Origin: Paracoccus aminophilus JCM 7686 | GTDB lineage: Bacteria; Pseudomonadota; Alphaproteobacteria; Rhodobacterales; Rhodobacteraceae | Reading direction: 5' to 3' | Length of the DNA: 64,000 nucleotides | NCBI RefSeq assembly: GCF_000444995.1 | Contig: NC_022041.1 | Location: 2,516,001 to 2,580,000, forward strand | Part shown: one piece after another, positions 24,790 through 38,839 of the stretch | How the letters are laid out: every line of letters starts with the position of its first letter | How positions within the stretch are numbered: the stretch's first letter is position 1 | Position numbers and translations under genes: made by a program | Notes under the pieces: generated by a model | Seen by the model: only the letters and a program-made list of their open reading frames with translations | Databases searched by the model: none | What the model was told of the DNA's origin: nothing

Positions 24790-26568
24790 TCACTCTTTCG
24801 GCAGCGCGCGCAGACGCAGCTCGCGCATTTGCTCGTTGGTGGGCTCGGAGGGCGCGCCCATCATCAGATCTTCCGCGCGCTGGTTCATCGGGAACATGAT
24901 GACTTCACGGATATTCTGCTCATCGGCCAGCAGCATGACGATGCGGTCGATGCCCGCCGCACAACCGCCGTGGGGCGGGGCGCCGTAGCGGAACGCCTTG
25001 ACCATGCCGCCAAAGCGCTTTTCGACCTCGTCATGGCCGTAGCCGGCAAGCTCGAAGGCCTTGAACATGATTTCCGGCGAATGGTTGCGGATCGCGCCGG
25101 AAATCAGCTCGTAGCCGTTGCAGGCGAGGTCATATTGGTAGCCTTTGATCGTCAGCGGATCCTGCGCATTCAGCGCTTCCAGCCCGCCCTGCGGCATCGA
25201 GAACGGGTTGTGGCTGAAGTCGATCTTGCCGTCGTCGCCCTTCTCATACATCGGGAAATCGACGATCCAGGCGAATTTGAACTGGTTCTCGTCGGTCAGA
25301 CCGAGCTCGCGACCGATCTCGGTGCGGGCGCGACCAGCGACCGCCTCGAAGGTTTCGGGCTTGCCGCCGAGGAAGAAGGCCGCGTCGCCCTCGCCCAGAC
25401 CAAGCTGAAGGCGGATCGCTTCGGTCGGCTCATGGCCCAAAGCTTTCGCGATCGGACCAGCGGCCTCGGTCGAGCCATCCTCGGCCTTGCGCCAGAAGAT
25501 ATAGCCCATGCCCGGCAGGCCCTGCTGTTGAGCAAAAGCGTTCATGCGGTCGGCGAATTTGCGCGAGCCACCGGTCGGCGCGGGAATGGCGCGAACCTCG
25601 GTCCCGTCCTGTTCGAGCAGCTTCGCGAAAATGCCAAAGCCCGAGCCGCGGAAGTGGTCGGAAACGACCTGCATCTCGATCGGGTTGCGCAGATCGGGCT
25701 TGTCCGAGCCGTATTTCAGCATCGATTCCGCGTAAGGAATGCGCGGCCAGTTCGTATCAACCGGACGGCCGCCGCCGAATTCTTCGAAGAGACCCTGAAT
25801 CACCGGCTGGACGGTCGCGAACACGTCTTCCTGCTCGATGAAGGACATCTCGAGGTCGAGCTGGTAGAAATCGGTCGGCGAGCGGTCGGCGCGCGGGTCT
25901 TCGTCGCGGAAGCAGGGCGCGATCTGGAAATATTTGTCAAAGCCCGCGACCATGATCAGCTGTTTGAACTGCTGAGGCGCTTGCGGAAGTGCATAGAACT
26001 TGCCCGGATGCAGACGCGACGGCACGAGGAAGTCGCGCGCGCCCTCCGGCGAGGAAGCCGTGATGATCGGCGTCTGGAATTCGGTAAAGCCCTGATCCCA
26101 CATGCGGTTGCGGATCGAGCGCACCACTTTCGAGCGCAGCATGATGTTGTTGTGCAGGCTTTCGCGACGCAGGTCGAGGAAGCGGTAGGTCAGGCGGGTT
26201 TCCTCGGGATAATCCTGCTCGCCAAAAACCGGCAGCGGCAGATCATCCGACGGGCCCAGAACTTCGGTCGCGGTCGCGTAGACCTCGATCTCGCCGGTCG
26301 GCAGCTTTGCGTTCACAAGGCTTGCATCGCGCAGTTTGACCTTGCCGTCGATGCGGATCACCGTCTCGGCGCGCAGCTTTTCCAGCGCGGCAAAGGCCGG
26401 GCTGTCGCTGTCGGCGATCACCTGGGTGATGCCGTAATGGTCGCGCAGGTCAATGAACAAAACCCCGCCGTGATCGCGGACGCGATGAACCCAACCCGAG
26501 AGGCGAACCTCGGTCCCGGCATTCGCGGCAGTCAGCTGGCCGCAGGTATGGCTGCGATAGGCGCTCAT
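24790..26568 (-). CDS. aspS: Aspartyl-tRNA synthetase
   Basis: AspRS charges tRNA-Asp, and in organisms lacking AsnRS also tRNA-Asn, in the cytoplasm. The 592-residue length is that of bacterial AspRS with the GAD insertion domain. Order of parts: N-terminal OB-fold ([22 protein letters not shown]), class II motif 2 ([21 protein letters not shown] read in blocks), the GAD insert, and motif 3 ([23 protein letters not shown]). AGGGGA precedes the ATG at 26568. Whether it is discriminating cannot be decided by eye. Confidence 0.97.
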
Positions 26569-26629
26569 CGGATTTCCCCTGAATATTTCGGATTTGCATC
26601 AACATCTCCGGCGGGGGGAAGTCAAGCAA

Positions 26630-27286
26630 TCAGAACGGGCGCACGGCATTGCCCGAGTAGAAATAGGCGCCCATCCCCACCGCAAAGATCATATTCCCGG
26701 CCAAAGCGTGGAGCAGCCAGGCTCCGGGGAAGCCGCGCTTGAGATAGATATGCGCGAACAGCCAGCCGCCGAAGAAGGTCATGCCGGCGACGATCCAGGA
26801 CCAATACATCAGATGGGCGAGCGAGAAGATCACCGCATTGACCGCGATCGCCTGACGCTTGGTGCGGAAAAGCTGGCCGTAGCGGTGAAAGTAGAGCGCG
26901 CGAAAGATCAGCTCTTGCGGCAGGGCCGAGAGCAGCGGGTACAGCATCCAGATCAACGCGAGAAACCGCAGGCGCTGCGGCGAGAGGTTCAGCGCATAGC
27001 CCGGATGGGTCAGCCACATGATGCCCCAGCCGATCAACCCGACCAGAAGCGCGAAGATCAGATATTTGCCCCAGCGGATCTCGGACCAGCCCCGCAAAAG
27101 GCTGCGCCATTCAAAGCCGCCCGTCCGCCACAAAAGCGCCATCCCGAGCAGCGAGAAGGCGAAGAGCGCGAGAAACATCCGCCCGGGCGGCAGGAAAACG
27201 GCAACGCCGAGCGGCACTCCGACAAAGAGTGCCGCGAATTCGGCCCAAAGCCAGCCGCGCCTTATTGTGACCGGCGATTGAGCCAT
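26630..27286 (-). CDS. CPBP family intramembrane protease-like protein
   Basis: This polytopic membrane protein of 218 residues (from the ATG at 27286) has the CPBP/Abi fold motifs: PQELIFRALYFHRY, FSLAHLMYWSW and FPGAWLLHALAGNMIF with histidines in the second and third. Classical members carry two adjacent glutamates in motif 1; here the first is Gln (QE). That variant occurs in some subfamilies, so loss of activity is not certain. The start overlaps the 3' end of the GH25 gene by 25 bases, which implies coupled translation. An ATG three codons earlier is possible. Confidence 0.85.
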   Translation of the reverse strand: MAQSPVTIRRGWLWAEFAALFVGVPLGVAVFLPPGRMFLALFAFSLLGMALLWRTGGFEWRSLLRGWSEIRWGKYLIFALLVGLIGWGIMWLTHPGYALNLSPQRLRFLALIWMLYPLLSALPQELIFRALYFHRYGQLFRTKRQAIAVNAVIFSLAHLMYWSWIVAGMTFFGGWLFAHIYLKRGFPGAWLLHALAGNMIFAVGMGAYFYSGNAVRPF

Positions 27287-28065
27287 TGCTGCCATTGACC
27301 GCGGTTTCCTGCGAATGCGTTCAGATCGACTCGACCTTCAATGCCCGGAACCAGACCGGTGCCGGTATATTGCCAGAAGGACCAACGCTGGCCCGGATAG
27401 ATCTCCGAGGGATGCGCCGCGACCGAGCGCAGCCAGAATTCAGCATCCACCCGGCCAAGGTTGTTGTCATGGTAGAAATCGACCGTGGTGTAGATGATCG
27501 GGCGCTGGCCGTAATAGCTGTGCAGCAGATTGATGAAGGAGCTCGCCTCGCGGCGCACTTCCTCGGGGCTCGGCTTATAGCGGCAGGTCTGGGATTTATG
27601 CGTCCATTCCAGATCGACGACCGGCGGCAGCGCACCGCGCTCACGCGGGACATTGGCGATATACCATGCGGCCTGCTCGGCGCCCGAGCGGCAGAAGTAA
27701 TAGTAATGATAGGCGCCGCGCGGCACACCTGCGGCCCCCGCCTCTTGCCAGTAGCGCCGGAACGCCGGGTCGGAATGGTCTCCGCCCTCGGTCGCTTTGA
27801 TGAAGGCAAAGGAAATCCCGGCCTGCCGGGCCGCGCGCCAGTCGATATTGCCCTGATAGCGCGAGATATCCATGCCATGGACCTCGTGGTTATAGGGATG
27901 CCCGCCCTTCCACAAATGGGGCGCGGCATCGCCGAGCGCGGGAACCGTGCCGCCGACATAGCCGCCGCCATATCCCCCACCCCGGTGAATCGCGCCTGGG
28001 TTGCGCGCACAAGCGGCGGCGGCGACCACCAACAGAACCGCCAGGATCCTTCCAAGAATTTTCAT
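27262..28065 (-). CDS. GH25 family lysozyme-like lipoprotein
   Basis: This 267-residue protein has a lipoprotein signal peptide (lipobox AAAC, Cys19). A Gly/Tyr-rich linker is followed by a glycoside hydrolase family 25 domain, which cuts peptidoglycan between MurNAc and GlcNAc. Catalytic-site blocks are HGMDISRYQGNIDW, FAFIKATEGGDHSDPAFRRYW, YHYYYFCRSG and PPVVDLEWTH, with the acidic pair expected in DLEW. It would act in the periplasm. AGAGGG precedes the ATG at 28065. It is followed by the overlapping CPBP gene. The 153-base upstream gap holds a perfect palindrome and a direct repeat that may be its control region. Confidence 0.92.
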   Translation of the reverse strand: MKILGRILAVLLVVAAAACARNPGAIHRGGGYGGGYVGGTVPALGDAAPHLWKGGHPYNHEVHGMDISRYQGNIDWRAARQAGISFAFIKATEGGDHSDPAFRRYWQEAGAAGVPRGAYHYYYFCRSGAEQAAWYIANVPRERGALPPVVDLEWTHKSQTCRYKPSPEEVRREASSFINLLHSYYGQRPIIYTTVDFYHDNNLGRVDAEFWLRSVAAHPSEIYPGQRWSFWQYTGTGLVPGIEGRVDLNAFAGNRGQWQQWLNRRSQ

Positions 28066-28131
28066 CGCTGCCCTCTGCTCGACGACGCGTTCGACGCGCT
28101 TTTGCGCGTTATGGCAAAGCCGCGAAAGAAA

Positions 28132-28147
28132 GTCACGCCAGCGTGAC
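28132..28147. promoter_or_regulatory. Palindrome upstream of the GH25-CPBP operon
   Basis: GTCACGC and GCGTGAC flank a CA spacer, a perfect 7+7 dyad 67 bases before the GH25 start. It looks like an operator for an unidentified regulator. Confidence 0.45.
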
Positions 28148-28150
28148 AGT

Positions 28151-28193
28151 CACGAATTGGTCAGAGCGGAAAACATGGCACGAATTGGCCAGA
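28151..28193. repeat. 15-base direct repeat upstream of the GH25-CPBP operon
   Basis: CACGAATTGGTCAGA (28151-28165) recurs as CACGAATTGGCCAGA (28179-28193), one difference, 28 bases apart. It lies next to the palindrome at 28132. Confidence 0.7.
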
Positions 28194-28218
28194 TCCGGGG
28201 CGGCGCCCGCCGCCGCGC

Positions 28219-29592
28219 TCAACCGGGGATAAGCTTTCCCGGGTTCATGATCCCGTTCGGGTCGAGCGCGCGCTTGATGGCGGCCATGACGCCTCCGGCC
28301 TCGCCATGCTGCAGCGCCATCAGATCACGTTTGCCCAGCCCGATGCCATGCTCGCCCGAGATCGTGCCGCCGACCGCAATCGCCCGCTCTGCCATGCGGG
28401 TCGCGACGCGTTTGGCGGCGGCGAGCTCCTCGGCATTCTCGGGATCGAGCAGGATCGTCGCATGGAAATTGCCGTCGCCGACATGGCCGAGGATCGGGCC
28501 CAGAAGCCCCGCCTCGCGGATATCGTCGCGCGCGGCGGTGACGGCGCCCGCGAGCTCGGACATCGGCACGCAAATATCGGTGACCAGCGCCGTCGCACCC
28601 GGACGCAGCGAGAGACAGGCCGGATAGGCGCCATGCCGCATCTTCCACAGCCGCGCCCGCTCTTCCGCCGTGCTCGCCCAGTCAAAGCCGAGCCCGCCGA
28701 ATTCGCCCGCAATCTCGCCAAAGCGCGCGGCATCGCCCCGCACGCTTTCGCCCGAGCCGTGAAACTCGACCAGCAGATGCGGCTTTTCGGGCAGCGTGGT
28801 CCCCGCGTAATGGTTAAAGGCGCGCGCGGTCTCGGCATCGACGAATTCGATCCGTGCCATGGGAATGCCGGACTGAATCGTCGCCGTCACGCAATCGACC
28901 GCGTGTTCCAGCGTATCGAAAGCGCAGACCGCCGCCGCGACATCCTCGGGCTGGCCCTGCAGGCGAAGCACCAGCTCGGTGATGATCGCGAGCGTCCCTT
29001 CCGAGCCGACCAGAAGCGCGGTCAGATCATAGCCCGCGCTCGATTTCGCCGCGCGCGAGCCGGCGCGGATGATGCGGCCATCCGCGAGCACCGCCTCGAG
29101 CGCCAGCACATTGTCGCGCATCGTGCCGTAACGCACCGCCGTCGTGCCGCTGGCGCGGGTCGAGGCCATGCCACCAAGGCTGGCATTGGCACCGGGATCG
29201 ACCGGGAAGAACAGCCCGGTCGCGCGCAGATCGGCATTGAGCGCCTCGCGCGTCACCCCGGGCTGGACCACCGCGAGCATATCCTCGGGGCGGACCTCGA
29301 GAATCGCGGCCATCCGGCTGAGATCAAGCGTGATGCCGCCGTGAATGGCCAAGGCGTGCCCCTCAAGCGAAGTGCCGGTGCCCCAGCCGATCACCGGAAT
29401 GCGGTTCGCGTTGCACAGGCTCAGAATGAACGAGACCTCCGCGGTGGTCTCGGGCCAGATCACCGCATCGGGCAGACGCGCGCGGTGAAAGGTCTCCGAG
29501 CCCGCATAATGGCTCAGATCTGCGGCCTTGACCGAAAAGCGCGCGCCAAAGGCGCTGGCAAGCTCATCTTGGACATGATCGGGAAGCGACAT
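28219..29592 (-). CDS. FAD-linked oxidase (D-lactate dehydrogenase/glycolate oxidase GlcD type)
   Basis: This 457-residue flavoprotein has an N-terminal FAD-binding (PCMH) domain with PVIGWGTGTSLEGHALA, VDPGANASLGGMASTRASGT and LLVGSEGTLAIITELVLRL. A C-terminal domain follows with ILGHVGDGNFHATILLD and the hallmark GTISGEHGIGLGKRDLM, as in cytochrome-linked D-lactate dehydrogenases. It probably oxidises a D-2-hydroxyacid and passes electrons to the respiratory chain. The ATG at 29592 is preceded by AAGG; the frame continues upstream without homology. It follows the DUF808 gene by 74 bases on the same strand. Confidence 0.9.
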   Translation of the reverse strand: MSLPDHVQDELASAFGARFSVKAADLSHYAGSETFHRARLPDAVIWPETTAEVSFILSLCNANRIPVIGWGTGTSLEGHALAIHGGITLDLSRMAAILEVRPEDMLAVVQPGVTREALNADLRATGLFFPVDPGANASLGGMASTRASGTTAVRYGTMRDNVLALEAVLADGRIIRAGSRAAKSSAGYDLTALLVGSEGTLAIITELVLRLQGQPEDVAAAVCAFDTLEHAVDCVTATIQSGIPMARIEFVDAETARAFNHYAGTTLPEKPHLLVEFHGSGESVRGDAARFGEIAGEFGGLGFDWASTAEERARLWKMRHGAYPACLSLRPGATALVTDICVPMSELAGAVTAARDDIREAGLLGPILGHVGDGNFHATILLDPENAEELAAAKRVATRMAERAIAVGGTISGEHGIGLGKRDLMALQHGEAGGVMAAIKRALDPNGIMNPGKLIPG

Positions 29593-29666
29593 CGGAGAGA
29601 CCTTCTGCTGGCGGGCCGCCGCGTCCGGACGCCCCTGCCCCTTAGTCACGAAAACCTCGGCCGCGT

Positions 29667-30644
29667 TCAATGGCCCACCGTCGCCTTTTTGCCGGTGATC
29701 GCCGCGAAAACCGGGCCGATGATCTTGGTCGCCACCGGGATCAGCACGAGGCCAAGAAGCACGCCGAAGATCCCGTCGAAAAAGGCGGTGACGGCCCATT
29801 CGACCACGCCCGCGCCGACCGGCATGGTCGCGCCCGCGCGGGCCGCGGTTGCGGTGATCCATTCATAGGGCTGATGCATGCCCAGATCGTGGAGCCCGTG
29901 GATCACGATATTGCCCCCAACCCAGACCATGGCGGCGGTGCCGACAATCAGCAAAAGCCGCATGAATCCCGGCATGATCCGCACGATCCAGCGCCCAAAG
30001 GCCGCGACCCCGGCGCGGCCCTTGCGCGCGAGATGCAGGCCGAAGTCATCGGCCTTCACGATCAGCGCGACAAAGCCGTAGACCCCGACGGTGATCAACA
30101 CCGCGACGACCAGAAGGATCAGCGCCTTCATCCAGATCGGATCGCTTTCGGGGATGGTTGAAAGCGCGATGGTCATGATCTCGGCCGAGAGGATGAAGTC
30201 GGTCTTGACCGCGCCCGCCACCCGCTGCTCTTCAAGCGAGACCGAGCCATCGGCATTGACCTGCAGCTCGGCCTCGGCGCCGTGATCGCCGGGGCGCAGC
30301 GCGTGCCAGACCTTCTCGGCGCCCTCAAAGCACAGATAGGCCCCGCCGATCATCAGAAGCGGCGAGATCAGCCAGGGCGCGAAGGCCGAAAGCAGCAGCG
30401 CCACCGGCAAGAGGATCACGACCTTGTTGAAGATCGAGCCGCGCGCGATCTTAAGAACGATCGGCACCTCGCGGCTGGCGTCGAAACCATGGACATATTT
30501 CGGCGTCACCGCCGCATCGTCGATCACCGCGCCCGCGGCTTTCGCGCCCGCTTTGGCCGCCTGCCCCGCGACATCATCGACCGAGGCCGCCGCCACTTTC
30601 GCGATTGCGCCAATGTCGTCCAAAAGCGCGATCAGCCCCGTCAT
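29667..30644 (-). CDS. DUF808 family membrane protein
   Basis: This 325-residue polytopic membrane protein matches DUF808 (E. coli YedI), of unknown function. The N-terminus MTGLIALLDDIGAIAKVAAAS and the block GSIFNKVVILLPVALLLSAF are characteristic, followed by WLISPLLMIGGAYLCFEGAEK and further spans to the C-terminus (FFDGIFGVLLGLVLIPVATK). About six to eight spans are visible. GAGGG precedes its ATG at 30644. It is divergent from cobS and lies upstream of the FAD oxidase gene. Confidence 0.9.
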   Translation of the reverse strand: MTGLIALLDDIGAIAKVAAASVDDVAGQAAKAGAKAAGAVIDDAAVTPKYVHGFDASREVPIVLKIARGSIFNKVVILLPVALLLSAFAPWLISPLLMIGGAYLCFEGAEKVWHALRPGDHGAEAELQVNADGSVSLEEQRVAGAVKTDFILSAEIMTIALSTIPESDPIWMKALILLVVAVLITVGVYGFVALIVKADDFGLHLARKGRAGVAAFGRWIVRIMPGFMRLLLIVGTAAMVWVGGNIVIHGLHDLGMHQPYEWITATAARAGATMPVGAGVVEWAVTAFFDGIFGVLLGLVLIPVATKIIGPVFAAITGKKATVGH

Positions 30645-30832
30645 TTTGCAACCCTCGTGTCAAATCTCCGTCACTGAACGCGGCGGACTCCCTCTCGGTT
30701 ACCACGAAACTGGCGCCAAAACTCCCCGCTTTGTCGTAGCCCTGCGACTTTCCGTGGTCTGAGTGGTCAGCCGACCTTGCACCCCTTTCGGGAATGTTCC
30801 AGAAAGTCGTGAATATTCGATAAAGGTGCGCC

Positions 30833-31804
30833 ATGCTCGATAAAGATGCCAAACCGACCGAAGAGATCGACCTGCGCGAGGTCTTCGGCCTCGACAGCGA
30901 CATGAAGGTCAAGGGTTTCGCCGAGCGAACCGAGCGCGTGCCGGAAATCGACCCGACCTATAAGTTCGATCCCGACACGACGATGGCGATCCTCGCGGGC
31001 TTTGCCTACAACCGCCGCGTCATGATCCAGGGCTATCACGGCACCGGCAAATCGACCCATATCGAGCAGATCGCGGCGCGGCTGAACTGGCCCTGCGTGC
31101 GCGTCAACCTCGACAGCCACGTCTCCCGGATCGACCTGATCGGCAAGGATGCGATCAAACTGATCGACGGCAAGCAGGTCACGGTCTTCCACGAGGGCAT
31201 TCTGCCTTGGGCTTTGCGCAACCCGACCGCGATCGTCTTTGACGAATATGACGCGGGCCGCGCGGACGTGATGTTCGTGATCCAGCGCGTTCTGGAAGCC
31301 GACGGCAAGCTGACGCTTCTCGACCAAAACGAGGTCATCACGCCGAACCCGTTCTTCCGCCTGTTTGCAACCGCGAACACCGTGGGTCTGGGCGACACGA
31401 CCGGGCTTTACCACGGCACCCAGCAGATCAACCAGGGCCAGATGGACCGCTGGTCGCTGGTCTCGACGCTGAACTATCTGAGCCATGACGCGGAAACCAA
31501 TATCGTTCTGGCGAAGAACCCGACCTACAACACCGAGAAGGGTCGCAAGGAAATCAGCCAGATGGTCAGCCTCGCCGATCTGACGCGCACGGCCTTCATG
31601 CAGGGCGATCTCTCGACGGTCATGTCGCCGCGCACCGTGATCGCCTGGGCGCAAAACGCACGCATTTTCAACAACATCGGCTATGCGTTCCGCCTGACCT
31701 TCCTGAACAAATGCGACGAGCTCGAGCGCCAGACGGTCGCCGAATTCTACCAGCGCCTGTTCGACGAGGAACTGCCGGAAAGCGCGGCAGCCAAGGCTGG
31801 GTGA
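30833..31804 (+). CDS. cobS: Aerobic cobaltochelatase subunit CobS
   Basis: CobS is the AAA+ ATPase of CobNST, which inserts cobalt into hydrogenobyrinic acid a,c-diamide in aerobic cobalamin synthesis. The 323-residue protein has Walker [10 protein letters not shown] (about residues 67-75), Walker [14 protein letters not shown], and the sensor region [21 protein letters not shown]. The N-terminal [17 protein letters not shown] is typical. AAAGG precedes the ATG. Its stop overlaps the next start as TGATG, and that next gene is a low-GC stranger rather than cobT. No cobalamin riboswitch was recognised in the 188 bases upstream. Confidence 0.97.
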
Positions 31805-32373
31805 TGCGGGATCCGATAAGAGAGTTTTCGGAGTTCTCGCGATCCGACGATGCTCTTATCGGAAAACTTGTCCGTGCCTTTGGTCTGTTGGAATCCGCAG
31901 TCAGTGAGTTGATTTTAACAATCTGTAAGGTTGCGCCTAGTTTTCTGGATGCGAAAGGTATCTCTAGCTCCGACGCGCTCTTAGGAAAATTGCTTAAATC
32001 TGGCATTGGCGGTATGTGCGGGTTCATCAAAGACTATGTTGAGAGCGCTTACAGCAACCATCCAAGGCTGAGAATGCTCAGCACCGACCTTGTTGAATTC
32101 GTCTCATCAACAAAGACTTTGCGGAACATTATTTGCCATGGTTCGTGGCAAATTCTTGGCCACGACCATCTCACATGCCGGTTTTGGTCCGATGCTGCTC
32201 GCGACCATGCTTCAAACTGCGATAGAGCCGATGCGCAGCCGTGGGAATATACTTACGCGCGCAGCGACTTACATACATACTCCACTGAAATCGTTACGAT
32301 TTCGAGGCGGATACTGGAATTGAACGGGATCTTGTTGGACGGCATGTCCTCTCTCGAGAAGAATAAAGTGTGA
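31804..32373 (+). CDS. Low-GC protein of unknown function with HEPN-like RNxxxH motif, inside cobS-cobT
   Basis: I do not recognise this 189-residue protein. It is predominantly helical and contains R107-N-I-I-C-H112-G in a helix-like stretch ([14 protein letters not shown]), which fits the R-[polar]-x3-H signature of HEPN domains, many of which are RNases of toxin or defence systems. It begins [15 protein letters not shown], a pattern also seen in uncharacterised RNxxxHG proteins. Base composition is foreign: I count 233 G+C in 480 bases (31861-32340, 48.5%), against well over 60% around it. The start overlaps the cobS stop (TGATG) and cobT begins 19 bases after its stop with its own GGAGGG, so it appears inserted without breaking the operon. 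The function is not known; HEPN membership is inference. Confidence 0.75.
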
Positions 32374-32392
32374 GTTGGAGGGAAAATTCACC

Positions 32393-34252
32393 ATGAAAAA
32401 ATCCGACAACCCCGCCGATCCGTTCAAGAAGGCCCTGACTGAGGCCACGCGTGCGCTTGCCGAAGAGCGTGAGCTGAACGTCACCTTCTCGGCCGACCCT
32501 TCGGGGGTCGCGGGCGATACGATGCGTCTGCCTCAGGTCTCCCGCCGCATGACGCGCGAGGAAATCTTGCTCGCACGCGGGACGGCCGATGCTCTGGCGA
32601 TGAAGCTGCGTCACCACGACAATGCGACCCATGCCAAATATGCGCCCTCGGGCCCGATGGCGCGCGAGCTTTACGAGGCGATGGAGACCGCGCGTTGCGA
32701 GGCGCTTGGCGCGCGTGACATGCCGGGCGCGCTTTCGAACATCGACGCCAAGATCGGCTTTGACGCCGAGCGTAAGGGCTATGCCCAGATCAAATCCGCG
32801 ACCGAAGCGCCTTTGGCGGCGGCGGCGGGCTATATCGTGCGCGAAATGGCGACCGGGCGGAAACTGCCCACGGCGGCGCAGCATGTCGCCGATCTGTGGC
32901 GGCCTTTCGTCGAAGAACAGGCCGGGGGCGATCTCGAGGACATCAGCGCGGCCCTTGCCGATCAGACCGCTTTCGCGCGGCTTGCCCGCAAGGTCATCGC
33001 CGATCTCGGCTATGGCGATCAGCTGGGTGAGGACCCGGATGAGCCCGAGGACGATTCCGAGGACAGCGCCGAGCAGGAAGAGGAATCGAGCGACAACCAG
33101 TCTCGCGACCAATCCGAAGAGGATGATGCCGAGGCCGCGCCCGAGCAAAGTCAGGAGCAGCAGCAGGACGAGCGTCAGGCTCAGGTCAGCATGGACGACC
33201 AGTCCGACGAGGAAATGGCCGATGAGGCCGAATCCTCGGAAGCCGACACGCCCCCCGACCTGCCGCCGCCGGTCTCGGATGCCAGCATTGATTACCGCGT
33301 CTATACGCAGGAATTCGACGAGGAAATCCGCGCCGAGGATCTGGCCGAACCCGCCGAGCTGGAACGCCTGCGCGCCTATCTCGACAAGCAGCTCGAACCT
33401 CTGCGCGGGGCGGTCAGCCGTCTTGCCAACAAGCTGCAACGCCGTTTGCAGGCCCAGCAAAGCCGCAGCTGGGAATTCGACAAGGAAGAGGGCGTGCTCG
33501 ATGCGGGCCGTCTGGCGCGGGTGATCGCGAACCCGACCACGCCGCTCTCGTTCAAGGTCGAGAAGGACACCGAATTCCGCGACACCGTGGTGACGCTTCT
33601 CATCGACAATTCGGGCTCGATGCGGGGCCGCCCGATCTCGATCGCGGCGATCTGCGCCGATGTCATGGCGCGCACGCTTGAACGCTGCCAGGTCAAGGTC
33701 GAGATCCTGGGCTTCACCACCCGCGCCTGGAAGGGCGGTCAAAGCCGCGAGAAATGGCTGGCCGAGGGCCGTCCGGCCTCTCCGGGCCGTCTGAACGATC
33801 TGCGCCACATCATCTACAAGGGGGCCGATGCGCCGTGGCGGCGCGTGCGTCCGAACCTTGGGCTGATGATGAAAGAGGGCCTCTTGAAGGAAAACATCGA
33901 CGGCGAGGCGCTTGAATGGGCGCATCGCCGGATGGTGCGCCGCAGCGAGGCGCGCAAGATCCTCATGGTGATTTCGGACGGGGCGCCGGTCGATGATTCG
34001 ACGCTCTCGGTCAATCCGGCGAACTACCTTGAAAAGCATCTGCGCGATGTGATCGCCATGGTCGAAAAGAAAAAGCAGGTCGAGCTTTTGGCCATCGGCA
34101 TTGGCCATGACGTGACGCGCTATTACGAGCGCGCGGTCACGATCACCGATGTCGATCAGCTGGCGGGCGCGATGACAGAGCAGCTCGCGGCGCTGTTTGA
34201 ATCCGATCCGCGCAAGCGCGCGCGCGCCTTGGGGATGCGCCGCGCAAGCTGA
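32393..34252 (+). CDS. cobT: Aerobic cobaltochelatase subunit CobT
   Basis: CobT partners CobS in the chaperone-like complex that drives cobalt insertion by CobN. The 619-residue protein has an N-terminal helical domain and a very acidic linker at about residues 205-290 (runs such as [20 protein letters not shown]). The C-terminal von Willebrand A domain has the MIDAS motif [11 protein letters not shown] and continues to [22 protein letters not shown] lies ten bases before the ATG at 32393; a TTG six codons earlier is less likely. It normally follows cobS directly, but here a low-GC gene separates them. A terminator follows. Confidence 0.97.
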
Positions 34253-34277
34253 TCAGCGCCTGAAAACGACGATCCAG

Positions 34278-34305
34278 AAAGGCGGGCCGCAAGTCCCGCC
34301 TTTTT
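34278..34305 (+). terminator. Rho-independent terminator after cobT
   Basis: AAAGGCGGG (34278-34286) pairs with CCCGCCTTT (34295-34303), continuing into a T run. It lies 25 bases after the cobT stop. Confidence 0.88.
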
Positions 34306-34341
34306 CCTTGCCCAGCCGAGCACTTGCCCGGTTCCGCCTCT

Positions 34342-34372
34342 GGACAGTTCCCCCACCAAAGGGGGATAGTCC
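34342..34372 (+). other. Stem-loop in the pepP leader
   Basis: GGAC and TCCCCC pair with GGGGGA and GTCC around ACCAAA, with a small internal loop. It ends 17 bases before the pepP start and just upstream of GGAGG, so it could influence ribosome access. Confidence 0.45.
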
Positions 34373-34389
34373 GGCATCGGAGGTGCCCC

Positions 34390-36198
34390 ATGGCCAATGA
34401 CAAACCCTTTCAGTCCTTCACCGTCGAAACCCGTCCCGAAGACGGGCCGCCGCGACTGGCCGCGCTGCGTGCCGAGCTGGCGCGTCGTGAGCTTGACGGT
34501 TTCATCGTGCCGCGCACCGATGCCCATCAGGGCGAATATGTGACCGCGAAGGACGCGCGGCTTTTGTGGCTGACCGGCTTTTCGGGCAGCGCGGGCTATG
34601 GGATCGTGACGGCGGCGCAGGCCGGGGTCTTTGTCGACGGCCGCTACCGCGTGCAGGTCAAGGGCGAGGTCGATCTCGCGCATTTCACGCCGGTGAACTG
34701 GCCCGAGACCTCGCTCGCAGATTGGCTGCGTCAGGCTTTGCCCGAGGGCGGGCGCGTGGCCTATGACCCTTGGCTGCAAAGCCGCAAGGAAATCCGCGAT
34801 ACCGAAGCCGCGCTCGCGGGGGCGAATATCGCGCTGGTGCCGAGCGAGAACCTTGTCGATCAGATCCGGACCGATCAGGCCGCAGCGGTCTCGGGGCCGG
34901 TCCGGCTGCATGACGAGGCGATTGCGGGCCGCACGGCAGCCGAGAAACGCGTCGCTTTGGCGGCAGAGCTGAAGGCGCGCGGGCAGGCCTCTACCGTGCT
35001 GACGCTGGCCGATTCCATCGCCTGGCTCTTGAACATCCGCGGCGAGGATCTACCGAAAAACCCCGTGGTTCAGGGCTTTGCCGTGGTCGATGACAAGGGT
35101 CAGGTCCAGCTTTTCTCTGAGCCCGCGAAATTCGGCCCCGAGGTCCGCGCGAAGCTGGGCAATGATGTGGTGATCCTGCCGGTCGAGGGCCTGCCCGCCG
35201 CCTTGGGCGAGTTGAACGGCCCGGTGCGGCTTGATCCCGCCTCGGCCCCCGATGAGGTCTTTCGTCTGGTCGAAGCGCGCGCCGATGTCGTCGAGGCCGC
35301 CGATCCGGTGGTGCTGCCGAAAGCGATCAAGACCGCCTCGGAGATCGAGGGGATGCGTCAGGCCCATCTGCGCGATGCCGTCGCCATGGTCGAGATGCTG
35401 GCCTGGCTCGATGCCCAACCGGTCGATGGCTCGCTCGATGAAATCGCGGTGGTCAAGAAGCTGGAAAGCCTGCGCCGGGCGCAGGGCGCGCATGATGTCA
35501 GCTTCGACACGATCAGCTCGACCGGGCCGAATGCGGCGATCAACCATTACCATGTGAACGAACAGACCAATCTGCCGATCCGCGACGGCGAGCTGTTGCT
35601 GCTCGATTCGGGCGGGCAATACCGCGACGGCACGACCGATATCACCCGCACCATTCCGATGGGCCAGATCACCGCGCGCCACCGCCTGCCCTATACGCTG
35701 GTCCTGCAAGGCATGGTCAATCTGTCGCGGCTGAAATTCCCCAAAGGCCGCGCCGGGCGCGATCTCGACCCGGTGGCGCGCGCGCCCTTGTGGACGGCGG
35801 GGCTCGATTTCGACCACGGCACCGGCCACGGCGTCGGCGCAGCGCTTTGCGTCCATGAGGGGCCGGTGCGGATTTCGCGCGTGTCGGAAATTCCGCTGCA
35901 ACCGGGCATGATCCTCTCGAACGAGCCCGGCTATTACCGCGAGGGCGATTTCGGCATTCGCATCGAGAACCTGATCGTCGTGACCCCATCCGACAGCCCG
36001 GATGGCCGCGAGATGCTGGGTTTCGAGACGCTGACCTGGGTTCCGATCGACACCCGCCCGCTTGATCTGACGCTGATGTCGAAAGCTGAAATCGACTGGC
36101 TCAACGCCTATCACGCCGAGGTGCGCGCGAAAGTCGCGCCGCTGGTCACCGGCGCCGCGCATGACTGGCTGATCCGCGCGACCGAGGCTTTGGGGTAA
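34390..36198 (+). CDS. pepP: Xaa-Pro aminopeptidase (M24B, long form)
   Basis: This cytoplasmic metallopeptidase removes an N-terminal residue next to proline. The 602-residue protein has two creatinase-like N-terminal domains (GFIVPRTDAHQGEYV, LWLTGFSGSAGYGIV; ADSIAWLLNIRG) and a C-terminal pita-bread domain. The expected two-metal ligands are present: LLLDSGGQY, GTTDITR, GTGHGVGAAL, SNEPGYYREGDFG and IRIENLIVV. The ATG at 34390 follows GGAGG. The long three-domain form is typical of alphaproteobacteria and eukaryotic XPNPEP1. It stands alone between the cobT terminator and a hairpin after its stop. Confidence 0.94.
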   Translation: MANDKPFQSFTVETRPEDGPPRLAALRAELARRELDGFIVPRTDAHQGEYVTAKDARLLWLTGFSGSAGYGIVTAAQAGVFVDGRYRVQVKGEVDLAHFTPVNWPETSLADWLRQALPEGGRVAYDPWLQSRKEIRDTEAALAGANIALVPSENLVDQIRTDQAAAVSGPVRLHDEAIAGRTAAEKRVALAAELKARGQASTVLTLADSIAWLLNIRGEDLPKNPVVQGFAVVDDKGQVQLFSEPAKFGPEVRAKLGNDVVILPVEGLPAALGELNGPVRLDPASAPDEVFRLVEARADVVEAADPVVLPKAIKTASEIEGMRQAHLRDAVAMVEMLAWLDAQPVDGSLDEIAVVKKLESLRRAQGAHDVSFDTISSTGPNAAINHYHVNEQTNLPIRDGELLLLDSGGQYRDGTTDITRTIPMGQITARHRLPYTLVLQGMVNLSRLKFPKGRAGRDLDPVARAPLWTAGLDFDHGTGHGVGAALCVHEGPVRISRVSEIPLQPGMILSNEPGYYREGDFGIRIENLIVVTPSDSPDGREMLGFETLTWVPIDTRPLDLTLMSKAEIDWLNAYHAEVRAKVAPLVTGAAHDWLIRATEALG

Positions 36199-36544
36199 GC
36201 CGCGTCTCCGCGATCTCGCCGCGCTGGCAGCGGGATCGCGGGCTCTGACCCGGGGCGGAAGGCGGCGCCTGCCCCGCGACCCGGTTTGACAAGGGTTTGA
36301 CAAAGGGATGAAGTTTTTGCTTTTTTCGGGGCGGCACCTGTCAGGTGATCGGCGCGATTGGCAAAAGACCCGCCCGACCGTCCTATGGTTGTTACAATCG
36401 CAGTCCATCCGAACGGCCTGACCTCGCGGCCTGCCGATCTGCGAAAGCCCGCCCGATCTGGCCCCTCCGCCGCGCGGGATGGCTCAGCGGTGGGCCAGCG
36501 GCGGGCCCATCACCACCCGCCCCGGCGGAGAGACGGAGACAAAA
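36199..36544. other. 346-base intergenic region with hairpin, direct repeat and palindrome
   Basis: No gene is supported here. It contains an interrupted hairpin just after pepP (CGCGATC with GATCGCG and CCGC with GCGG, 36209-36240), probably a terminator-like structure without T tract. Further on come an 11-base tandem repeat, GGTTTGACAAG then GGTTTGACAAA (36283-36304), and a perfect palindrome, CACCTG-T-CAGGTG (36335-36347). The repeats each include TTGACA, the -35 consensus. The last two elements probably serve the DUF1045 gene downstream. Confidence 0.6.
36283..36304 (+). repeat. 11-base tandem repeat carrying TTGACA
   Basis: GGTTTGACAAG (36283-36293) is followed directly by GGTTTGACAAA (36294-36304). 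The 11-base period puts both on the same face of the helix. Confidence 0.7.
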
Positions 36545-37213
36545 ATGCGCTATGCGGTTTACCACCTTCCCGAAGACCCGCTTGGAGATTGGGGCAGCGC
36601 TTGGCTCGGTTGGGACATCCGCACAGGCCAAACGCGGACCCAGCCCGAGGTCACGGGCCTGCCAAAGCCCCTCGCCGCGCTGACGGAGATCCCGCGCCGC
36701 TACGGCTTTCACGCCACGCTGAAGGCGCCGATGGTGCTGGCCGAGGGCGCCAAGCCGGATGAGTTGGCCGCCGCGTTGCGCACCGTTGCCGCGCGCCATC
36801 GTCCCCTTGCCCTGACGATGCAGCTCGTCACCGATTGGGGCTTTCTCTGCCTGCGCCCGCAGCATCAGCCCTCTGCCCTGCATGCGCTCGAGGCCGATCT
36901 GGTGCAAGAGCTCGACCGCTTCCGCGCCGCGCTGAGCGCCGAGGATCGCGCCCGCCGCCAGCCAGAGCGTCTGAGCGATGCGGCGCGCAACCATCTCGAC
37001 CGCTGGGGCTATCCCCATGTGCTCGAACTTTTCCACTATCACCTCACCCTCTCGGGCCCGATTACCGAGGAAGAGGGTGACGCGCTGAAGGCCCGGTTGT
37101 CGGGCCCGCTCGGCGCGCTGATCGAAGCACCGATGCCGGTCTCGAAACTCGCGCTGGTGATCGAGCGCCCGGATCGCCAGTTCGAGCTGGTCGAAGAGGT
37201 CGCGCTCGGCTGA
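36545..37213 (+). CDS. DUF1045 protein of the phosphonate-operon type (2H phosphoesterase fold)
   Basis: This 222-residue protein matches DUF1045, a family usually encoded with C-P lyase (phn) genes. Two His-x-Thr-like motifs, YGFHATLKAPM and FHYHLTLSGPI, are the signature of 2H phosphodiesterases, so cyclic phosphate ring opening is a plausible activity. GGAG precedes the ATG at 36545, and earlier in-frame ATGs fall in low-quality sequence. No phnG-L genes are in the window, but a PhnM-like gene lies 1.8 kb downstream. The exact reaction is unknown. Confidence 0.85.
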   Translation: MRYAVYHLPEDPLGDWGSAWLGWDIRTGQTRTQPEVTGLPKPLAALTEIPRRYGFHATLKAPMVLAEGAKPDELAAALRTVAARHRPLALTMQLVTDWGFLCLRPQHQPSALHALEADLVQELDRFRAALSAEDRARRQPERLSDAARNHLDRWGYPHVLELFHYHLTLSGPITEEEGDALKARLSGPLGALIEAPMPVSKLALVIERPDRQFELVEEVALG

Positions 37214-37222
37214 CCTAGGCTT

Positions 37223-37258
37223 TGCCCGATAAAGTGGCAGATGCCACGTCATCGGGCA
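37223..37258 (+). other. Two-part hairpin after the DUF1045 gene
   Basis: TGCCCGAT pairs with ATCGGGCA and, inside, GTGGC with GCCAC around AGAT, separated by a 3x3 internal loop. It starts ten bases after the DUF1045 stop and lies 105 bases before the GNAT start. There is no T tract. Confidence 0.6.
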
Positions 37259-37363
37259 GATCCTGCGGGCAACGGGCCGGGCGCGCGGCACGGGCGGACG
37301 CTGGACCTTGCCTTGCGCCCCCACGGCCCCCATCCCGATCAGAAGCAATGGCGGAGAGCGGCA

Positions 37364-37879
37364 ATGATGGTCAGGGATGCGAGCCCCGAGGATGTGGCGG
37401 CAATCGCCGAGATCTATAATGACGCGGTGCGCACCACGACCGCGATCTGGAACGACAGCACCGTCGATGCCGCGAACCGTCTGGCCTGGATGCAGGATCG
37501 CACCCGTCTGGGCTATCCGGTTCTGGTCGCGACCGGGGCCTCGGGCGAGGTGCTGGGCTATGCCTCTTTCGGCGATTGGCGCGCCTTTGACGGCTATCGC
37601 CACACCGTCGAGCATTCGGTCTATGTCGCGCGCGATGCGCGCGGTCAGGGGATCGGCAAGGCGCTGATGGTGGCGCTGATCGAGCGCGCGCGCACGATTG
37701 GCAAACATGCCATGGTCGCGGCGATCGAGGCGGGCAATCAGGGCTCGATCGAGCTCCACCGCAAGCTTGGTTTTCGCGACGCGGGCGTGCTGACCGAGGT
37801 CGGGATGAAATTCGGGCGCTGGCTCGATCTCGCGCTTTTGCAGCTCACGCTCGATGCGCGCTCGACGCCTGCGGGCTGA
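37364..37879 (+). CDS. GNAT acetyltransferase, phosphinothricin/methionine sulfoximine type
   Basis: This 171-residue protein resembles the Pat/MddA family that N-acetylates methionine sulfoximine, methionine sulfone or phosphinothricin. Blocks: MVRDASPEDVAAIAEIYNDAV, TTTAIWNDSTVDAANRLAWM, GYASFGDWRAFDGYRHTVEHSVYV (in parts), the acetyl-CoA loop RGQGIGKALM, and ELHRKLGFRDAGVLTEVGMKFGRWLDL in parts. GGAG seven bases before the first of two adjacent ATGs supports 37364. Its stop abuts the convergent corA stop. Its place beside a phosphonate-type gene may be chance. Confidence 0.9.
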   Translation: MMVRDASPEDVAAIAEIYNDAVRTTTAIWNDSTVDAANRLAWMQDRTRLGYPVLVATGASGEVLGYASFGDWRAFDGYRHTVEHSVYVARDARGQGIGKALMVALIERARTIGKHAMVAAIEAGNQGSIELHRKLGFRDAGVLTEVGMKFGRWLDLALLQLTLDARSTPAG

Positions 37880-38839
37880 TCAAAGCCATTTCTTCCAGCG
37901 AAAGAGCAGGAAGGTCGCGACCGAAGAGGCGACCATCAGCGCGAGCGCGGTTTCATAGCCCCAGGGCGCGCTGAGTTCGGGCATATGGGCGAAGTTCATG
38001 CCGTAGACGCTGGCAATCAGGGTCGGCGGCATGAAGAGCGCAGCCACGACGGAGAGGATCTTCACGGTGGTGTTCTGGCGCAGGTTGATCATGCCCATGG
38101 TCGCATCGACGACCAGCGTCACCCGCGCATCGAGAAAATCGGAATGGACCTGCAACGCGTGAATATCGCGCTGGATCGCCGCGAGATTGGGACGCAGCTT
38201 CGCGGCCTCGCTGCGCCGCTCGATCACCGGCAGATGAAAGGTCAGCATCCGCTCGAGCGTCATCAGGCAGAGCCGGACCCGGCTGACCAATTCGGCATTG
38301 CGCCCAACCGTGACCAATGCGCCGCGCAGTTCTTGATCCGATGAGTTTTCCGCCTTGCCCAGAATCTCGCCCGAGGTCTGTTCTAGCACCCTCCCCACAC
38401 CTTCAAGCAGATCGGCCATCCGCGCGACGATCTCTTCGTTCAACCCGACAAAGATCCGCTCGGCCGAGCCGACGCCGCAAGAGCTTTGATCGGCGCGGGT
38501 CGGATAGGTCGCGAAAGAGCGCGGCTCGTGATGGCGCACCGTGACCAGACGCGTCGCCGAGAGAATGAAGGTGACCGGACCCAGAATGGAATGGCCGCGC
38601 AGGTCCTGCCCCGGCACCATCGCGGTCATATAGGCGGTCTCGCCCTCGAGATAGAGCCGGTTCGAGATCTCGATCTCTTCCATATCCTCGAGCGTCGGCA
38701 CCTCGACGCCAAGCCGCGCCATCGCCGCGATCTCGTCGGGATCGGGGATGAAAAGGTCGATCCAGACGGCAGCGGCCAGATCGGTTTCGGGCGGCAACAG
38801 CGCAAGGCCCTTTTCGGCGGGAACATAGGCTTTCAGCAT
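37880..38839 (-). CDS. corA: CorA family magnesium/cobalt transporter
   Basis: CorA is a pentameric inner-membrane channel for Mg2+ and, at times, Co2+ or Ni2+. The 319-residue protein has a long cytoplasmic domain (WIDLFIPDPDEIAAMARL, TLEDMEEIEISNRLY) and the two C-terminal spans, the first ending in the signature YGMNF. It ends KKW-L with a basic tail. GGAGG sits immediately before one ATG and six bases before the next, so the second (38839) is chosen. It is convergent with the GNAT gene and divergent from the PhnM-like gene. Confidence 0.94.
   Translation of the reverse strand: MLKAYVPAEKGLALLPPETDLAAAVWIDLFIPDPDEIAAMARLGVEVPTLEDMEEIEISNRLYLEGETAYMTAMVPGQDLRGHSILGPVTFILSATRLVTVRHHEPRSFATYPTRADQSSCGVGSAERIFVGLNEEIVARMADLLEGVGRVLEQTSGEILGKAENSSDQELRGALVTVGRNAELVSRVRLCLMTLERMLTFHLPVIERRSEAAKLRPNLAAIQRDIHALQVHSDFLDARVTLVVDATMGMINLRQNTTVKILSVVAALFMPPTLIASVYGMNFAHMPELSAPWGYETALALMVASSVATFLLFRWKKWL

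Follow-up and report, generated by a model that had tools for sequence, protein, structure and literature searches.

We analyzed a window of 64,000 nucleotides from Paracoccus aminophilus JCM 7686 (NC_022041.1, positions 2,516,001 to 2,580,000), in which cobS and cobT, encoding the AAA+ and vWA subunits of cobaltochelatase, are separated by a single gene whose product we call P0001 and which, according to our analysis, probably encodes a much diverged HEPN-like protein. The coordinates of the locus are collected in Table 1. A preliminary description made from the sequence had reported the open reading frame (ORF) of 189 codons plus stop, its TGATG junction with cobS, the 19-base spacing to cobT and the sequence RNIICHG at residues 107 to 113, with all of which the ORF and sequence agree; an alternative in-frame GTG start lies at 31801, one codon before the ATG. 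We consider this a real gene on account of homology, since R, N, H, and W residues are conserved across 72 aligned relatives (alignment A3) and three other genomes have relatives at the same position. Its base composition is foreign, as the same description had proposed from 233 G+C in 480 bases (31861 to 32340): its overall G+C content is 0.486, and none of 4,100 overlapping windows of 570 bases, drawn from twenty 20-kb samples (400 kb) of the same chromosome, is as low (mean, 0.635; standard deviation, 0.034). By codon position, its G+C content is 0.47/0.44/0.55 versus 0.60/0.38/0.85 in cobS, and the pattern is unlike that of cobT too. The repeats found between 31600 and 32500 are one 12-base direct pair, which does not flank the insert, and an inverted repeat at the gene start, and no Rfam match at gathering score was obtained within 26000 to 38000.

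The preliminary description took cobS and cobT to be normally adjoining and an insertion between them to be unusual, a premise that comparison with other genomes overturned. cobS was matched in 123 and cobT in 122 of 125 Paracoccus genomes, and in 96 genomes the two are paired, that is, on one contig and strand and within 20 kb, with partial matches underlying some of the pairs (G022, G096, G099, G106, and G121); the remaining 28 genomes that have at least one of the two genes carry them at a distance or on separate contigs, or gave no match to one of them. The gap between the paired genes ranges from 33 to 2,800 bases with a median of 770, being shorter than 250 bases in 22 genomes and at least 250 bases in 74. 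At the family level, sampled by 198 genomes, almost always a single one for each genus, 119 of 128 genomes are paired among the matches listed, and the gap (21 to 7,050 bases; median, 816) is at least 250 bases in 88 of the 119, a count made without G000, G057, and genomes with one gene unlisted or on another contig (e.g., G241).

Close relatives differ at this junction as well. In a tree of 30 of the 122 CobT proteins, a clade of ten with end branches of 0.002 to 0.076 has gaps of 280 to 1,091 bases with different contents, while a control pair from these ten genomes, formed by a paralog of P0001 and the homoserine dehydrogenase gene hom, has gaps of 83 to 121 bases. Genus-wide, the control gaps are bimodal near 100 and 540 bases (41 of 107 are at least 250 bases; the largest is 928), so that this single gene pair is stable within those ten genomes but not across the genus; three of 110 genomes were left out of the control (G022 and G121, with a split match, and G104, with the genes on different contigs), and in G099 the paralog copy on the hom contig was taken, not the best-scoring one. 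The slots of the four best genomes by cobS score are as follows: in G022, the closest, the gap is 137 bases long and the whole genome lacks a P0001 match at an E value of ≤1; G113 carries a PD-(D/E)XK-like gene; G091 carries a 131-amino-acid ORF; and the gap of G106 measures 79 bases and falls at the end of a contig.

Hot spots of accessory genes flanked by core genes are characterized by conserved flanks and variable cargo. The cobS-cobT junction has both conserved flanks and different contents in close relatives; unlike such hot spots in general, it separates two genes of a single operon, frequently holds just one gene, and frequently shows a stop/start overlap, and it is new as an instance of a known idea. 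We regard the P0001 gene, with high confidence, as cargo in a hypervariable cobS-cobT slot; taken alone, the gene is a modest finding, and the more noteworthy feature is the exchange slot. The foreign composition, together with the integrity of both neighboring genes, would also suit a rare break-in of an accessory gene into an otherwise contiguous operon, as originally envisaged, an account that we consider highly improbable given that most paired relatives hold other DNA at the same junction. Searches of the open-access literature on cobS/cobT in connection with Paracoccus, Rhodobacteraceae, or hot spots, on hot spots and defense, and on HEPN in Paracoccus listed no title or abstract on this slot.

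Among the 74 long gaps, 47 contain a co-directional ORF of at least 80 amino acids starting within about 45 bases of the end of cobS, and 18 of these ORFs end within 60 bases of cobT. The sequence GTGATG is kept at the cobS stop in 20 of the 47 slot genes. The 47 first slot genes fall into 25 blastp families, 16 of which are singletons, among them the HEPN-like protein of G087, although phmmer ties the latter to P0001; some slot ORFs, those of G019/G116/G118 for example, could be fortuitous, since overlapping antisense frames were seen. A Pfam scan of 27 of the 47 slot proteins placed five above the curated cutoff, namely, an Asp/Glu racemase in G059 and G107, an NYN protein in G072, a glycosyltransferase 61 in G009, and a sulfotransferase in G088, and a PD-(D/E)XK match in G039 fell below it (E value, 0.017). 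A PD-(D/E)XK-like slot protein (AAGEHLVMSRLLSRGY) occurs in six genomes (L049, L050, L051, L100, L106, and L110), with GTGATG in all six; at the DNA level, its gene is 90% alike between G074 and G073 and only 78 to 79% alike between G074 and both G039 and G113.

Several gaps bear traces that suggest exchange. A match to the start of cobT (34 to 69 residues) lies inside the gap in 3 of the 74 genomes (G042, G070, and G073), versus no hits with a reversed-query control, and in G070 and G073 the truncated cobT start directly follows the slot gene. The DNA that follows these stubs resembles the gaps of other species: positions 818 to 2680 of G073 are 91% like the G011 gap running into cobT, positions 888 to 2377 of G070 are 83% like the G120 gap, and positions 939 to 1854 of G042 are 84% like part of the G105 gap, among the matches listed. 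When the stubs were compared with cobT, the intact cobT of the same genome ranked 8, 16, and 9 of 74, which, over the 74 to 140 bases compared, is suggestive of a stub not being nearest to its own cobT. The stubs and the DNA after them together suggest exchange by recombination, the simplest reading being that a recombination event, imprecise at one end, brought in cargo along with all or part of cobT; in G073 and G011, the shared downstream DNA may be inherited, with the slot gene and stub as the newcomer. The expectation from recent transfer, that recurrent slot genes be more alike than their flanks, mostly fails: the 150-base flanks usually resemble each other more closely than the slot DNA does, and G073/G074 form the clearest exception in rank (slot, 0.90; flanks, 0.91 and 0.90).

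Table 1. Features of the cobS-cobT slot in the window and of truncated cobT starts in the gaps of other genomes
Feature	Position	Strand	Basis
cobS (cobaltochelatase AAA+ subunit), left slot flank	30833..31804	+	ORF; matches across the genus
TGATG, cobS stop (TGA, 31802-31804) overlapping the start of the HEPN-like gene (ATG at 31804, sharing the A)	31802..31806	+	Sequence
HEPN-like slot gene, 189 aa (P0001)	31804..32373	+	ORF, G+C content, structure model
Predicted mRNA hairpin (inverted repeat) at slot gene start	31812..31863	+	z of -3.03; 0 of 200 shuffles as stable
Rx4H motif codons, R107-N108-I-I-C-H112	32122..32139	+	Sequence; alignment of relatives
19-base leader with GGAGGG ahead of cobT	32374..32392	+	Sequence
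cobT (cobaltochelatase vWA subunit; ATG at 32393), right slot flank	32393..34252	+	ORF; matches across the genus
Truncated cobT starts in gaps	L110 from 693, L105 from 669, L099 from 672	Oriented cobS to cobT	Similarity to cobT start

As to the identity of P0001, PMC3710099 defines HEPN domains by an Rx4-6H motif in which the R is followed by a polar residue, mostly N, D, or H, and which is placed at the end of helix-3 in a core of two alpha-hairpins. P0001 has this motif as R107, N108, three further residues, and H112, with the R, N, and H invariant in the 72 sequences of A3. In its structure model, a prediction described as confident, the long helices span residues 13 to 43, 56 to 82, 88 to 112, and 153 to 187, so that the motif falls at a HEPN-like end of helix-3, and a beta-hairpin follows it. 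The second, acidic motif of many but not all HEPN families, Ex3[KR], is incomplete, since E30 is invariant and P0001 has S at +4; paralogs carry E30/E31 and K34/R35. The model of the core paralog introduced above is closest to HEPN domains, with HEPN-containing entries in 8 of its first 11 VIA rows, whereas the VIA list of P0001 contains HepT entries and no other HEPN entries, helical bundles scoring a middling Z against many folds.

At the level of profiles, sequence searches with P0001 gave no match in Pfam, NCBIfam, PADLOC, PDB sequences, or PHROGs, no PADLOC-DB 2.0.0 model matched up to an E value of 10, Foldseek returned no significant match to the model, and the viral fold library gave none at an E value of ≤0.001. 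A HepT-like match was found for one of the 72 rows of A3 (E value, 0.15), DUF6969 being the commoner weak match. Alignment of A3 to HEPN families by hhalign placed motif on motif at P values of 0.0027 to 0.011, and the two families HepT and RiboL-PSP, used as a yardstick, reach only 0.002 with each other. These null searches, the commoner DUF6969 match, and the unspecific behavior of helical bundles would fit a four-helix protein of no particular kind, not HEPN, whose RNxxxHG is a coincidence, which we deem quite unlikely, as R, N, and H are invariant in an alignment most positions of which vary, the motif sits at the HEPN position, and the paralog model is HEPN-like. The HEPN-like motif of the preliminary description stands in this form, resting on its position in a confident model and on the homologous paralog, and the predicted structure, one of the checks proposed there, does not show a fold unrelated to HEPN. 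P0001 very likely adopts a HEPN fold and is probably an RNase; a role in defense is possible but somewhat doubtful.

P0001 is a new and much diverged HEPN-like protein. At an E value of ≤1, the only same-place relatives, directly after cobS, in the 125 genus genomes are those of G004 (P0003), G087 (P0002), and G014, with about 21 to 27% identity to P0001 and the same motif, so that the gap comparison suggested earlier shows no conservation of the gene at this position. The slot proteins are far apart from one another as well (about 20 to 30% identity), and the G014 relative has one in-frame TAG and its cobT on another contig. Over nearly its full length, P0001 is closest to the metagenomic protein P0121 (29%). 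The protein database yielded only P0001 itself at an E value of ≤0.001 and, with the four-row profile A1, only P0001 and two rows of A1; tblastn gave no match for P0001 in plasmids and phages or for P0121 in plasmids, and scans of genome and viral contigs gave no confirmed P0001 relative. A search with the G087 relative in 295 family genomes, run without a positive control, found no match at an E value of ≤0.001.

The core paralog (P0078 family) is present in 110 of the 125 genomes and lies co-directionally beside hom in 107 of 107 paired genomes. It is homologous to P0001 over about residues 17 to 119 and carries the same motif, whereas its genomic place is stable and its identity to P0001 is 18 to 20%. 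In G000 it lies at C1:1960231-1960752 (L141, 1498 to 2025) beside homoserine dehydrogenase with the motif RNLLCH, and a relative in L003 has no Pfam match. In G022 (C1:343704-345547 and 526931-527445) and G121 (C1:752796-754650 and 3048018-3048499), cobT is split into two and three matches, respectively, and the core paralog is split as well, through frameshifts or assembly errors.

The prevalence of this paralog, with its motif kept, and the existence of noncatalytic RNA-binding HEPN families, named in PMC3710099, would be compatible with a HEPN fold in a housekeeping or regulatory role (RNA binding or maintenance) merely relocated into the slot. We find this unlikely, as the slot proteins have diverged far more than the paralogs, 57 of 62 compared rows of which are 42 to 69% identical to P0078, and HEPN-like genes are rare at this place, unlike what a housekeeping gene would show. 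About equally unlikely is a passenger heading for loss after a chance arrival, decaying without selected function: the many singleton families, the stop codon in the G014 relative, the truncated cobT starts, and the missing gene in G022 agree with it, and the 189-codon open frame with intact motif residues and a confident model, and the recurrent GTGATG at the cobS stop, speak against it.

A scan for sigma-70-type promoters over 30600 to 32500 found none, with 0.9 expected by chance, and since the start overlaps the cobS stop, the P0001 gene is probably cotranscribed with cobS and translationally coupled to it. The start regions of 34 slot genes have a mean structure z of -1.32, versus -0.14 for internal windows, +0.18 for cobT starts, and -0.21 for cobS 3' ends; tested by 15 families, the P values are 0.005, 0.003, and 0.026, respectively, or 0.011, 0.007, and 0.049 without the G019/G116/G118 group. 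This trend is post hoc and covers the 34 of 47 slot ORFs whose start lies within 5 bases of the reference point, and the HEPN-like gene of G004 has no start structure (z of 0.29 from single folds). A coupled, structured start would hold a potentially harmful RNase at a low dose.

Taken together, the models and comparisons lead us to favor, on balance, a HEPN-fold protein that stands alone and is probably an endoribonuclease acting independently of metal through R107, N108, and H112, encoded as cargo of the hypervariable slot. Its gene, which has no antitoxin gene next to it, would have arrived within a slot allele that recombined through the conserved cobS and cobT arms. Expression would depend on read-through transcription and on ribosomes that terminate at the cobS TGA and reinitiate at the start codon overlapping it, and the protein might cleave RNA once triggered, perhaps by stress or an attacking phage. 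A wider proposal, which we put forward only tentatively and hold improbable as a whole, is that Paracoccus and the family around it have, at this junction, a built-in site for the exchange of mostly single genes: a ready ribosome-binding and stop/start site would come from the end of cobS (AAGGCGGGGTGATG), structured starts would tie cargo translation to cobS, and cargo-cobT alleles would pass from one species to another, with one end joined through homology and the opposite end imprecisely, perhaps via gene transfer agents or natural transformation, which are possible vehicles, with HEPN as one of several nucleic-acid-cutting cargoes (HEPN, PD-(D/E)XK-like, and NYN) kept at a low, cobS-linked dose. 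If the slot works in this way, a housekeeping operon would serve as a landing place with immediate and proportionate expression for newcomers, which opens the question of how newly acquired single genes are expressed without their own promoter. Its cargo, largely without Pfam match in the scanned part and including HEPN-, PD-(D/E)XK-, and NYN-type proteins, provides a list of candidates for defense or stress functions, whereas P0001 alone is one more diverged HEPN-like protein.

With respect to known systems, P0001 resembles HepT of HepT-MntA (HEPN-MNT; PF01934) in its all-helical character and in the HepT entries in the VIA lists of both P0001 and the paralog, and its RNIICH compares with RNIAVH in Shewanella SO_3166, as given in PMC4621449. 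It differs in having a beta-hairpin after the motif, a weak profile match, no Y two residues after the H (invariant in seven HepT rows), and, alone between cobS and cobT, no adjacent MNT nucleotidyltransferase antitoxin gene; lacking the latter, it is nearer to stand-alone HEPN RNases than to HepT-MntA. With RiboL-PSP-type HEPN proteins (PF18735) it shares the motif of R, a polar residue, three residues, and H, and three of the paralogs listed, P0010, P0030, and P0046, bear UniRef names with RiboL-PSP-HEPN or Swt1-like HEPN, although the alignment with the P0001 family is limited to the motif region (P values of 0.003 to 0.011). The genome that encodes P0001 also carries a further HEPN gene (G000:C1:2259377-2259913; L180), which scores above the RiboL-PSP cutoff.
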